This document shows positions 5,992 to 24,314 of a stretch of DNA of 58,141 nt, in pieces. The translations under genes were made by a program, and so were the position numbers. The stretch is from positions 1 through 58,141 of the forward strand of contig NZ_BJYY01000023.1 in NCBI RefSeq assembly GCF_007991755.1. Direction: 5' to 3'. Within the stretch, counting starts at the first letter, position 1; each line of letters opens with the position of its first letter. The notes beneath the pieces are model-generated. The model made no database searches and had not been told where the DNA came from. It saw only the letters and a program-made list of their open reading frames with translations. The DNA is from Cellulomonas aerilata. GTDB lineage: Bacteria; Actinomycetota; Actinomycetes; Actinomycetales; Cellulomonadaceae.

Positions 5992-6987
5992 GTGCACCTG
6001 CTCGTCACCGGCGGAGCCGGCTTCATCGGCTCCAACTTCGTCCACCAGACGGTCCGCGAGCGCCCCGACGTGCAGGTGACGATCCTCGACGCGCTGACCT
6101 ACGCGGGCGACGAGGCCTCCCTCGCGGCGGTGTCGGACCGGGTCACCCTCGTCCGTGGGGACATCGCGGACGCGGCGGTGGTGGACCCGCTGGTCGCGGA
6201 GGCCGACGTCGTCGTCCACTTCGCCGCGGAGTCCCACAACGACAACTCGCTGACGAACCCGTGGCCGTTCGTGCAGACCAACGTGGTCGGCACCTACACG
6301 CTGCTCGAGGCGGTGCGCCGGCACTCGACCCGCTTCCACCACATCTCGACCGACGAGGTCTACGGCGACCTCGAGCTCGACGACCCGGCGAGGTTCACGC
6401 CGGAGACGCCGTACAACCCGTCCAGCCCGTACTCGTCGACCAAGGCCGCGAGCGACCTGCTCGTCCGCGCGTGGGTGCGGTCGTTCGGGGTCCAGGCCAC
6501 GATCTCGAACTGCTCCAACAACTACGGGCCGTTCCAGCACGTGGAGAAGTTCATCCCCCGCCAGATCACCAACGTGATCGACGGCATCCGCCCCAAGCTC
6601 TACGGCAAGGGCGAGAACGTGCGGGACTGGATCCACGTCGAGGACCACAACACCGCGGTCTGGACCATCATCGAGCGCGGCCGGATCGGCGAGACGTACC
6701 TCATCGGCGCGGACGGCGAGGAGAACAACAAGAACGTCGTCGAGCTCATCCTGGAGCTGACGGGCCGCCCCCGCGACGCCTACGACCTGGTCAGCGACCG
6801 TCCCGGCCACGACATGCGCTACGCGATCGACTCGAGCAAGCTCCGCACCGAGCTGGGCTGGGAGCCGCGGTACGACAGCTTCCGCGACGGCCTCGCCGCG
6901 ACCATCGAGTGGTACCAGGCCAACGAGGCGTGGTGGCGCCCGCAGAAGGACGCCACGGAGGCGAAGTACGCCGAGCTCGGGCGCTAG
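5992..6987 (+). CDS. rfbB: dTDP-glucose 4,6-dehydratase
   Basis: A 331-residue extended short-chain dehydrogenase that turns dTDP-glucose into dTDP-4-keto-6-deoxyglucose, the second step toward dTDP-L-rhamnose and other deoxysugars. Visible are the NAD site [10 protein letters not shown] near the N-terminus, the family-specific STDEVYG with the catalytic Asp-Glu pair near 118-124, and the YSSTK catalytic Tyr-Lys near 144-148. Length is typical of RmlB/RfbB. The GTG start has AGGAGGA 4 nt upstream. No rfbA, rfbC or rfbD is in the window, so the rest of the pathway must be elsewhere. It would supply the neighbouring glycosyltransferases. Confidence 0.93.
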
Positions 6988-7055
6988 GCCGCGCGGGCGG
7001 CGCACGGGCTGGGCGGCGGGCGCACCGGCGCAGGGGCCGCGCCCGGCGCCGGCCG

Positions 7056-21508: not shown

Positions 21509-22741
21509 GTGCCCTCTCGCCATGCCGCGCGCCCGCGCGTCGCCCGCCACGCCCGCCGCCCGGAGTCCCACCGGGTGCTGTACGGCACCGCGCTCGGCGT
21601 CACGGCCCTGCTCGCGTTCGGCGTCACCGGCGCTGCGAGCGCGTACACGCGGCTGCAGGGCAACATCCGGTCCGTCGACGTCACCGAGCTGCTCGGCGAG
21701 AACCGCCCGACGCCGTCGGCTGCCCCCGACCCCGACGACCCCAACGCGGGCCGGGCGCTGAACATCCTCCTCATCGGCTCCGACGTGCGCGAGGGCGAGA
21801 ACGCCGAGATCGGCGGCGAGGTCGAGGGCATGCGGTCGGACACGACGATCGTCATGCACGTGTCCGCCGACCGCAGCCGGGTCGAGCTCGTCTCCATCCC
21901 CCGCGACACGCTGGTGGACATCCCGGCGTGCAACCGATCCGACGGCACCGCCTCCCGCTCCCAGCGCGGCCAGTTCAACGCGGCCTTCTCGATCGGGTCC
22001 GAGAGCGGCCAGGTCTCCGACGCCGCGGTGTGCACGATCGCGACCGTGGAGGAGAACACCGGCGTCTTCATCGACGACTACGTGGTCATCGACTTCGCGG
22101 GGTTCATCCGCATGATCGACGCGCTCGGTGGGGTGCCGATGTGCATCCCGAACGACATGAGCTCCCCCAAGGCGGGGCTGGAGCTCACCGCCGGCAACCA
22201 CGTGCTCGACGGCTCGACCGCACTGGCCTTCGCCCGGGCACGCACCGGCACCGGGGTCGGCGACGGCTCGGACACCGACCGCCTGGGCCGCCAGCAGCAG
22301 CTGCTCGCCGCGACGGTGCAGACCGTGCAGTCCAAGAACCTGCTCACCGACGTGCCGCAGCTGCTGAGCTTCCTCAACGCCGCGACGTCGTCGATCACCG
22401 CCAGCCCGAACCTGGCGTCGATCCCCAACATGACCGGCCTCGCCTTCAGCCTGCGCGCCACGCTGGGTGGCAACATCGCCTTCATGACGGTCCCGTTCGC
22501 CACCGCGCCGTCGGACCCGAACCGGGTCGTCATGACGGACGAGGCGGACCTGCTGTGGTCGAACATGTCCGCCGACCTGCCCCTGGTCGCCGAGCCCCCG
22601 GCCACCCCCGACCCCGCCTCGACGCCTGACCCGGCTGCGACGCCCGACCCCGCCGTCACCACGCCGCCGGTCGAGGCCGCCCCGCCCACTCCCGGCAAGG
22701 ACCCGATCACCGCCGACGACGTCTCGACCGTCTGTGGCTGA
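21509..22741 (+). CDS. LytR-CpsA-Psr (LCP) family wall-polymer ligase
   Basis: A 410-residue type II membrane protein: a short basic cytosolic N-terminus, one helix (about 24-45), then an extracellular LCP domain. LCP hallmarks are NILLIGSD, RSDTTIV with the conserved Arg-Asp, and SIPRDTLVDIP, which bind the polyprenyl-pyrophosphate donor and magnesium. The family moves lipid-linked glycopolymers onto peptidoglycan. The C-terminus (about 365-410) is a Pro/Asp/Thr linker ending in VSTVCG. It overlaps the second LCP gene by 8 nt. Position beside the glycopolymer locus suggests it attaches that polymer to the wall. Confidence 0.9.
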   Translation: MPSRHAARPRVARHARRPESHRVLYGTALGVTALLAFGVTGAASAYTRLQGNIRSVDVTELLGENRPTPSAAPDPDDPNAGRALNILLIGSDVREGENAEIGGEVEGMRSDTTIVMHVSADRSRVELVSIPRDTLVDIPACNRSDGTASRSQRGQFNAAFSIGSESGQVSDAAVCTIATVEENTGVFIDDYVVIDFAGFIRMIDALGGVPMCIPNDMSSPKAGLELTAGNHVLDGSTALAFARARTGTGVGDGSDTDRLGRQQQLLAATVQTVQSKNLLTDVPQLLSFLNAATSSITASPNLASIPNMTGLAFSLRATLGGNIAFMTVPFATAPSDPNRVVMTDEADLLWSNMSADLPLVAEPPATPDPASTPDPAATPDPAVTTPPVEAAPPTPGKDPITADDVSTVCG

Positions 22742-24314
22742 GCGTCCCACCGGCCGCGAGGACGCCCCCGACGCGGCGGGCGGGGGCGGCGGCAGCCGCG
22801 CCCGTGCCGGCGGCTCGGCCCGTCCGGTCGGCGGCCCGCCCCGCCCGACGGCTCCCCGGGACCCCCGACGGCCCGCTGCGGACGCCCGCGCCGATGCGGG
22901 TCCGAGCGCGCCGCCGCCGAGCTTCGCCCCTGGGGGCCCGGCACGGCGGGCCCCGGCCGTCGACGACGCCGACCCCGTGGGCACGGTCCCGCCGCGCGCG
23001 GTCCCGGCCCGCCCCCTGCCGCCGCGCGCGGCGCCGGCGCGGCAGGCCGGGTCCGCCCAGCCGGTGGGCACCGCGCACCCGGTGGAGGTGCCACCCCGCA
23101 CCGGGGGCCCGCAGCGGACTGGCACCGCCCAGCCCGTGGGCCGGCCGGCCGTGCAGATCCCGCCGCGGTCGGCCCAGGCCCTCGGCGCACCGGTGCAGGT
23201 CGGCGGCGCACCGGTGCAGGTCGGCGGCCCAGCCCGGGTCGCGTCCGCACGCCCGGGCACCGTCGCCCCCGGCCTCGCGCCCGGCGCGGGGGCTCCCGGG
23301 GCGCCGTCCGCCACGCCACGCGCGGGGCTGCTCGGCGGTCACGGCGAGCGGCGCCGACGGCTGCTGCTCGGGGTCGCGGTCGTCGCGGTGCTCCTGCTCG
23401 CGTGGCCCGTCGGCCTGCTGGTGTGGGCCAACGGCAAGATCCAGCACGTGCCGGCGCTGTCCGGCGGCGCCGACACCCCCGGCATCACCTACCTGCTCGC
23501 CGGGTCGGACCTGCGCGGCGGGGAGGGCGGCATCGCCCAGGACGGCACGGAGGGTGCCCGCACCGACACGATCATGCTGCTGCACGTCCCGTCCGGCGGG
23601 CCGGCCGCGCTGATCTCTCTGCCGCGCGACACCCTCGCCGAGATCCCCGGGCAGGGCGCGAACAAGCTCAACGCCGCGTACTCCTGGGGCGGCGCCCCGC
23701 TGCTCGTGGAGACGGTGGAGGGGCTGACCGGCATGCACGTCGACCACTACGTGGAGGTCGGCCTCGGCGGGGTGGCCCAGGTGGTGGACGCCGTCGGCGG
23801 CGTCGAGCTGTGCCTGGACCCGGCGGTCAACCAGGTCAGCTTCCCGCTGGACGACCCGGACTCCGGGCTCGTCTGGGCCGCCCCCGGCTGCCAGGTCGTC
23901 GACGGCTACACCTCCCTCGCCTTCGCCCGCATGCGCAAGGCGGACCGCGAGGGCGACATTGGCCGCGCCAAGCGCCAGCAGCAGCTGATCGCGGCACTGT
24001 CGTCGGCGGCGGCCACCCCGTCCACCGTGCTCAACCCCGGTCGGCAGGTCGGCCTGGTGTCGGCCGGCATCGGGGCGCTGCACGTGAGCGACGGGACGGA
24101 CATCACCGACCTGGGCCGGCTCGCACTCGCGTTCCGCAGCGCGTCCGGGCCGGAGGGCATCCGCGGCACGCCGCCGATCATCGACGCCGACTACCGGCCC
24201 GGGGGCATCGGCTCGACCGTCCGGCTGGACCCGGACGCGTCGCCGGCGTTCTTCCGCGACGTGATGAACGGCGACCTGCCGGCCGGTCCGGTCGGCGGGG
24301 TCCCCGCCGGCTGA
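22734..24314 (+). CDS. LytR-CpsA-Psr (LCP) family wall-polymer ligase with long cytosolic extension
   Basis: A 526-residue protein. The first ~205 residues are Pro/Ala/Gly/Arg-rich and probably disordered in the cytosol, followed by one helix (about 209-231) and an LCP domain (about 245-500) with YLLAGSDLRGG, RTDTIML and SLPRDTLAEIP. The late FARMRKAD...RAKRQQQ matches the conserved LCP Arg-rich end. The GTG start at 22734 overlaps the first LCP gene by 8 nt, so the two are coupled. Disordered N-terminal tails in actinobacterial LCP proteins often serve regulation or partner binding, but nothing specific can be read here. Confidence 0.88.
   Translation: MAERPTGREDAPDAAGGGGGSRARAGGSARPVGGPPRPTAPRDPRRPAADARADAGPSAPPPSFAPGGPARRAPAVDDADPVGTVPPRAVPARPLPPRAAPARQAGSAQPVGTAHPVEVPPRTGGPQRTGTAQPVGRPAVQIPPRSAQALGAPVQVGGAPVQVGGPARVASARPGTVAPGLAPGAGAPGAPSATPRAGLLGGHGERRRRLLLGVAVVAVLLLAWPVGLLVWANGKIQHVPALSGGADTPGITYLLAGSDLRGGEGGIAQDGTEGARTDTIMLLHVPSGGPAALISLPRDTLAEIPGQGANKLNAAYSWGGAPLLVETVEGLTGMHVDHYVEVGLGGVAQVVDAVGGVELCLDPAVNQVSFPLDDPDSGLVWAAPGCQVVDGYTSLAFARMRKADREGDIGRAKRQQQLIAALSSAAATPSTVLNPGRQVGLVSAGIGALHVSDGTDITDLGRLALAFRSASGPEGIRGTPPIIDADYRPGGIGSTVRLDPDASPAFFRDVMNGDLPAGPVGGVPAG
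23184..23225 (+). repeat. 21-bp tandem duplication in the second LCP gene
   Basis: Two identical 21-bp copies (23184-23204 and 23205-23225) encoding GAPVQVG twice in the disordered N-terminal tail. The exact identity points to a recent duplication. Confidence 0.8.

Follow-up and report, generated by a model that had tools for sequence, protein, structure and literature searches.

The window analysed here is a whole stretch of 58,141 nucleotides, the contig NZ_BJYY01000023.1 of Cellulomonas aerilata, and its positions 7056-21254 hold a block of genes for a predicted ketal pyruvyl transferase (PST), a GT4 glycosyltransferase, a sugar epimerase, two membrane proteins and two exported proteins with S-layer homology (SLH) domains. 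With a probability of roughly 70%, we regard this block as a unit for SLH-dependent surface display, which is gained and lost within a general wall-glycopolymer locus and which works as follows. The epimerase would supply a nucleotide sugar, and the GT4 coupled to it would transfer that sugar onto a lipid-linked chain. The PST, coupled in turn, would place ketal pyruvate from phosphoenolpyruvate (PEP) on the sugar added by the GT4, and extension or polymerisation of the chain would fall to the PMT-like and Wzy_C membrane proteins. Attachment of the chain to peptidoglycan would be the task of one of the adjacent LCP enzymes, or of both. Finally, the exported SLH-trimer proteins, two encoded here and five elsewhere, would bind the pyruvylated sugar non-covalently through their SLH arginines. 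Pyruvylation, the acceptor sugar, LCP attachment and SLH binding are the parts of the scheme which we infer.

The evidence obtained by computation consists of the gene set with its frame overlaps, a congener in which the block is missing, the co-occurrence and linkage of SLH and PST genes in the order, and the conservation of catalytic and binding residues.

Organization of the block

The window represents one entire contig (C23) of a 4.06 Mb genome in 32 contigs, with G+C of 70-80%. Genes at 5992-24314 were called from Pfam and NCBIfam scans, which recovered every gene that a first-pass annotation had named within these approximately 18 kb. The left border of the block is rmlB, encoding dTDP-glucose 4,6-dehydratase (5992-6987, plus strand; TIGR01181, 460.7 bits, cut-off 365.1). 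The right border is the LCP wall-glycopolymer ligase gene lcp1 (21509-22741, plus; PF03816, 143.5 bits), followed by a second one, lcp2 (22734-24314, plus; 129.1 bits; cut-off 24.6 for both). Between them, two gene runs diverge from 11371-11483. The leftward run consists of the SDR sugar epimerase/dehydratase (10267-11370, minus; PF01370, 156 bits), the GT4 glycosyltransferase (8234-10270, minus; PF00534, 107.1 bits) and the PST (7056-8237, minus; PF04230, 62.3 bits, gathering cut-off 25.3). Reading of the sequence showed that the epimerase/GT4 and GT4/PST frames each overlap by four bases (GTGA), with GTG starts of GT4 and PST. The rightward run comprises a PMT-like candidate membrane glycosyltransferase of GT-C type (11484-13217, plus; PF13231, 23.2 bits, below the cut-off of 26.1), a Wzy_C membrane protein, polymerase or ligase (about 13211-15226, plus; PF04932, 63.1 bits, plus a weak TPR match toward the end), and SLH protein 1 (15310-17265, plus). 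The GTG start of the Wzy_C gene at about 13211 overlaps the stop of the PMT-like gene, and SLH protein 1 starts 83 bp downstream of Wzy_C. SLH protein 2 (17883-21254, minus) is convergent with SLH protein 1.

In total, the genome contains one PF04230 gene, two LCP genes, both at this locus, and seven SLH trimers, five of them on other contigs. The description of the system as self-contained in the first-pass annotation was too strong: no initiating transferase or flippase was matched at 5992-24314 in the Pfam and NCBIfam scans, five SLH trimers are encoded elsewhere, and LCP genes occur without SLH in ten relatives, in one of them also without PST.

Presence and absence of the block in relatives

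That last relative is a congener (G417), in which the lcp1 and rmlB frames are separated by 78 bp only, and profile searches of its genome gave no PST, SLH or Wzy match. The gene order there is gtrA, purK, a 184-aa frame, an acyltransferase, gt2b, a 372-aa frame, lcp2, lcp1 and rmlB. The genes PST-GT4-epimerase-PMT-Wzy-SLH-SLH are consequently a unit that lies between rmlB and lcp1 in the window and is absent from one congener. In the block-less locus (L029), the identities to the window are 87% for rmlB, 77% for lcp1 and 76% over 353 residues for a GT2 glycosyltransferase. The latter is encoded upstream of rmlB in the window (4800-5908, plus, approximate start; PF00535, 74.9 bits; domain at residues 301-544 of the open reading frame 3956-5908), and its relative in the congener sits between lcp2 and purK. 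Beyond rmlB the congener carries an amidase with DUF4214 stretches (L029:9532-11598), possibly another surface module. In another genus of the same family (G341) lcp1 also adjoins rmlB; this genome has no SLH match and one PST, the position of which was not among the matches listed.

Within the 19 sampled genomes of the family, SLH was found in this genome alone, and a gain of SLH in its lineage is for this reason likely, with repeated loss as the alternative. The LCP genes were considered as special evidence for an SLH system and rejected as such, as lcp1 and/or lcp2 were found beside purK in all ten SLH-negative family members whose loci were compared.

A locus search for PST relatives gave one locus only. 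Nearly the same gene set was present there in a second lineage, on a contig of a metagenome-assembled genome named 'Actinomycetales bacterium' (L018), in line with the first-pass interpretation. The order on this contig is SLH, SLH, pmt, epi, gt4, pst, lcp1, lcp2, purK, gtrA, histidine kinase and response regulator. The SLH parts are 41 and 52% identical to those of the window, and the other genes 51-70%, with the PMT-like gene at 51%. The epi-gt4-pst run is oriented toward lcp1 in L018 and away from it in the window.

Co-occurrence and linkage of SLH and PST genes

The order sample was an even draw of 248 genomes, this genome included, as it was in every sample; PST was called by PF04230 and SLH by our SLH profile A2. 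There were 57 SLH-positive and 160 PST-positive genomes: 51 with both, six with SLH only, 109 with PST only and 82 with neither. PST was accordingly found in 51/57 SLH-positive versus 109/191 SLH-negative genomes (Fisher p=3e-6, with kinship ignored). Genomes with two or more SLH matches carried PST in 42 of 44 cases, and those with a single match in 9 of 13. Distances between the two genes were taken from the matches listed only, and all linkage counts are lower bounds. Among these matches, at least 16 of the 51 genomes had an SLH trimer and a PST no more than 20 kb apart, against 2.4 ± 1.5 expected under random placement, and the linked genomes spanned five families (f1, f2, f8, f50 and f53). 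At least seven genomes, six from f8 and one from f2, had less than 500 bp between the two, where random placement predicts 0.15. Since the linkage exceeds random placement and the block is absent from one congener, the arrangement is more than chance. The co-occurrence and linkage within the order support a pyruvylated wall polymer as the probable SLH ligand. The first-pass annotation had put up the joint occurrence of pyruvyl transferase, SLH and LCP genes in related genomes as a check; this held for SLH and PST, which are also linked, and the LCP genes occur in the ten relatives without SLH.

The pyruvyl transferase

The PST belongs to PF04230, and the first-pass annotation had called it CsaB-like. 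This is correct only in a broad sense; an assignment as CsaB orthologue was rejected, as the protein scores 48.4 bits against the CsaB equivalog TIGR03609 with its cut-off of 213.1 bits. That cut-off was passed by 0/296 genomes of the class sample versus 4/14 control genomes. Two SLH-positive genomes came nearer to the cut-off, with 186 (G086) and 150 bits (G030), and G230 gave 60 and G255 19 bits; SLH-bearing actinobacteria therefore have, judged by profile scores, more than one kind of PST.

In Paenibacillus alvei CsaB, the PEP-binding residues are R148, R306 and H308 (PMC10435577). By motif and by profile match to 5ax7 these would correspond to R164, R307 and H309 of the window PST, which were invariant in an alignment of 16 PSTs. 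A lysine, K329, is located near the place of P. alvei K328 in the PSTs of the window and L018 and was not found in the other 14 aligned proteins; the P. alvei loop residue R207 received no counterpart.

A PST tree was built by a quick method, with SH-aLRT support only, from 66 proteins chosen by hand among the listed matches of the order and class samples, plus L018; it represents each of the 16 genomes whose SLH and PST lie no more than 20 kb apart, and leaves out several SLH-positive and most SLH-negative PSTs. One clade (SH-aLRT 99) united 22 proteins, of which 15 were SLH-linked, six came from SLH-positive genomes without seen linkage and one from an SLH-negative genome, in families f1, f2, f8, f47, f50 and f53. 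Long branches are frequent in the tree, and this main clade does not include four of the SLH-linked groups (window with L018, G366, G030 and G255).

Ten long PST frames from SLH-positive genomes, out of 15 measured, were scanned for additional domains. In nine of them PST and a glycosyltransferase shared one frame. The partner was GT2 in eight (L019, L040, L041, L042, L043, L046, L049 and L055), preceding the PST in the L049 frame of G343, and the frame of G030, 31 kb from SLH, combined PST with a Glyco_trans_1_2 domain. Near an SLH gene in G366, a frame (L047:8355-10892) begins with a PST domain and ends with one of nitroreductase type. The pairing of PST with a glycosyltransferase is matched in the window by the coupled genes for GT4 and PST.

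SLH repeats and their passengers

Both exported proteins carry a putative Sec signal peptide at the N-terminus, as read by eye, and a C-terminal SLH trimer with PF00395 over the cut-off, at 16708-17247 in SLH protein 1 and at 17904-18458 in SLH protein 2. In the former, three stretches pass PF00395; in the latter, one stretch passes and three repeats are visible in the alignment. Two triple-SLH exported proteins, as annotated at first, were in this way verified, one by Pfam and the other by Pfam and alignment.

In SpaA, Arg43 and Gly29 of the SLH repeat contact pyruvate, and in SpaA and Sap, Trp13 stacks on the sugar (PMC6081394). Alignment of 20 trimers showed Arg43 to be invariant in all three repeats of all 20, and Gly29 to be invariant in two repeats and present in at least 90% in the third. 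Both residues are present in all six repeats of the window. A structure model of the SLH trimer reached pLDDT 70, and its ten best PDB matches were the SLH crystal structures of Sap and SpaA. As the best match had E 1.4e-5 and TM of about 0.37, the model places the trimer only in the Sap/SpaA fold family, and nothing closer is claimed.

SLH protein 1 contains an HExxHxxGxxH metalloprotease motif, by eye, and SLH protein 2 eight CarboxypepD_reg-type repeats (PF13620, eight stretches). The five SLH proteins encoded elsewhere in the genome are an arabinofuranosidase, a LamG/aBig protein, a subtilase, an fn3 protein and one without recognised type. By their predicted domains, the parts joined to SLH trimers in this genome resemble enzymes and stalks of the cell surface. 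The arabinofuranosidase and the LamG/aBig protein, both SLH-bearing, are encoded next to each other (L025:5372-13419).

Weighing the proposed unit

A number of observations weigh against the proposed display unit. The association test across the order ignores kinship, and the sequences behind profile A2 included SLH loci adjacent to PSTs (L018-L020). Six of the 57 SLH-positive genomes lacked PST (G257, G323, G338, G213, G444 and G480); four of these have a single SLH match, and one of the four is 73% complete. A PST was carried by 109 SLH-negative genomes of the order. In the family, PST was found in 16 of the 19 genomes and SLH in one, and therefore PST alone does not bring SLH. In the class sample of 296 genomes, searched with the plain Pfam SLH model, SLH was found in eight genomes, PST in 112 and both in five, which gives PST in 5/8 SLH-positive versus 107/288 SLH-negative genomes (p=0.16). 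Where a genome had at least three SLH hits, PST was present in 5/5 (p=0.007), at a threshold set in retrospect. One genome of this group speaks in favour of the unit: G255, from outside the order, has its PST within an SLH gene cluster, together with a Wzy homologue of 41% identity and a GlfT2-like transferase. In the tree, the window PST shares a long branch with that of L018, apart from the main SLH-linked clade, and the structure model of the window PST is poor (pLDDT 47.6). In L018, Wzy was not found, and the PST frame is interrupted close to the start by a stop codon (L018:8571-8573), either an assembly error or decay. Lastly, Trp13, or a Tyr in its place, is not kept in the SLH repeats: the six repeats of the window have Pro in five cases and Thr in one, with a Phe one residue later.

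A rival reading is that the PST decorates a polymer of the wall or capsule to some other end, such as charge or interplay with phages or neighbours, and that the SLH genes merely share the same variable region. PST without SLH is indeed common, also among the other sampled family members (15/18), and it can be found near the LCP/purK locus without SLH, as in G430, at a distance of about 10 kb from purK. Promicromonospora, whose wall polymers are pyruvylated with no SLH link named in print (PMC6801904), points to such a role. We nevertheless hold decoration alone to be unlikely, given that the SLH-PST linkage in five families is well above random placement, that the congener G417 is without both SLH and PST, and that 21 of the 22 proteins in one PST clade come from SLH-positive genomes.

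The SLH-positive genomes without PST, the loss of Trp13 and the disregard of kinship in the counts would agree as well with SLH trimers that bind the wall without pyruvate, through another anionic group or peptidoglycan, the co-occurrence with PST being a matter of common descent among lineages with many surface genes. The retention of the pyruvate-contacting Arg43 and Gly29 in every window repeat, and the seven genomes with SLH and PST less than 500 bp apart, make such pyruvate-free binding very improbable. The display unit with a pyruvylated ligand stays our preferred reading.

The proposed polymer and its acceptor sugar

The TagA/WecG family (PF03808) was found in 54/248 genomes of the order, in 9/57 SLH-positive (eight over the cut-off) versus 45/191 SLH-negative genomes (p=0.27). 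There was no enrichment in SLH-positive genomes, which speaks against a dependence of the SLH system on TagA, and because so few SLH-positive genomes have the family, the TagA-made N-acetylmannosamine (ManNAc) disaccharide of Bacillus and Paenibacillus seems unlikely as the general SLH ligand in the order. ManNAc could still serve in this genome, since it encodes one WecG (C7) and one UDP-GlcNAc 2-epimerase (C13), both on other contigs. For the acceptor of the window we would guess galactose, because the epimerase is GalE-like, although below the GalE cut-off (TIGR01179, 109 versus 262.3 bits), a GlfT2-like gene accompanies the PST of G255, and a Promicromonospora polymer contains 4,6Pyr-Gal. 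In a genome of another order, L020:11487-15727 holds a PST and, after it, genes for a GlfT2-like galactofuranosyltransferase and an SLH protein.

The Wzy_C family covers both polymerases and ligases, and proteins can serve as substrates of PMT-like enzymes. The two membrane proteins could on these grounds glycosylate the SLH proteins themselves, with the pyruvate placed on a protein glycan and not on a peptidoglycan-linked polymer; in both G362 and G255, relatives of the window Wzy do adjoin SLH genes, which is also the case here. A protein glycan is in our estimation decidedly unlikely, as the block abuts the only LCP genes of the genome, and relatives of the window Wzy (E<=1e-10, the count covering relatives of this Wzy only) occurred in 4/57 SLH-positive genomes and were not found in L018, versus PST in 51/57. 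In the whole order sample such relatives were found in 9/248 genomes, own included, of which only four were SLH-positive, and a window-type Wzy was rejected as a constant partner of the system.

Elsewhere in the window, positions 43009-49162 contain an ordinary sugar uptake locus with a sugar-binding protein, ABC permease, GH1 glycoside hydrolase and LacI-type regulator.

Relation to known systems

Anchoring of SLH proteins by a pyruvylated wall polymer was reportedly described in Firmicutes by Mesnage in 2000. The block resembles the CsaB/SLH/pyruvylated secondary cell wall polymer system of Bacillus anthracis and P. alvei in having a PF04230 PST with three PEP residues and SLH trimers with Arg43 and Gly29. 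It differs from that system in its PST, which is far below the CsaB cut-off (48 versus 213 bits) and coupled to a GT4 gene, in the missing Trp13, in the scarcity of TagA among SLH-positive genomes of the order (9/57) and in its absence from a congener. A wider proposal, which we put forward tentatively and at somewhat less than even odds, is that the order runs a parallel form of SLH anchoring: a glycosyltransferase and a non-CsaB PST, either fused or coupled in translation, would act as a unit and make a pyruvylated sugar that is not ManNAc and may be a galactose, SLH trimers without Trp13 would be adapted to it, and the system would enter and leave genomes as a single block within the LCP locus.

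SLH-repeat surface proteins of actinobacteria are in print for Propionibacterium freudenreichii, where SlpA, SlpB, SlpE, InlA and others have two to five SLH repeats (PMC4714504), and also in PMC5817068. As a difference from the system here, the string 'pyruv' is absent from the main text of PMC4714504, and 'pyruvyl' appears once in PMC5902329, in a cited title. Actinobacterial ketal pyruvate is known by chemistry from the non-phosphorylated wall polymers of Promicromonospora, namely a 4,6Pyr-Gal galactan, a 2,3Pyr-GlcA polymer and a 7,9Pyr-Kdn polymer, for which section 3.4.1 of PMC6801904 gives no gene, SLH protein or function. For Bifidobacterium longum BB-46 there is a remark on the expression of a PST together with a putative S-layer protein (PMC10057886), made from annotation, and the putative S-layer protein is annotated as an ABC permease. 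Thus SLH proteins in actinobacteria, pyruvylated actinobacterial wall polymers and SLH anchoring by pyruvylated polymer in Firmicutes are already known. Apart from the bifidobacterial remark, no report of an SLH-PST gene link in actinobacteria was found in our searches of the open-licence literature, nor one of a non-CsaB PST, a glycosyltransferase-PST pairing or the block in actinobacteria.

If the proposed reading is true, SLH anchoring by pyruvate would be a broader Gram-positive principle, realized via different transferases and probably different sugars. It would also point to a role that pyruvylated wall polymers may have in actinobacteria, and it would explain how such bacteria could keep hydrolases, like the arabinofuranosidase, the subtilase and the metalloprotease-like protein, on the cell surface.

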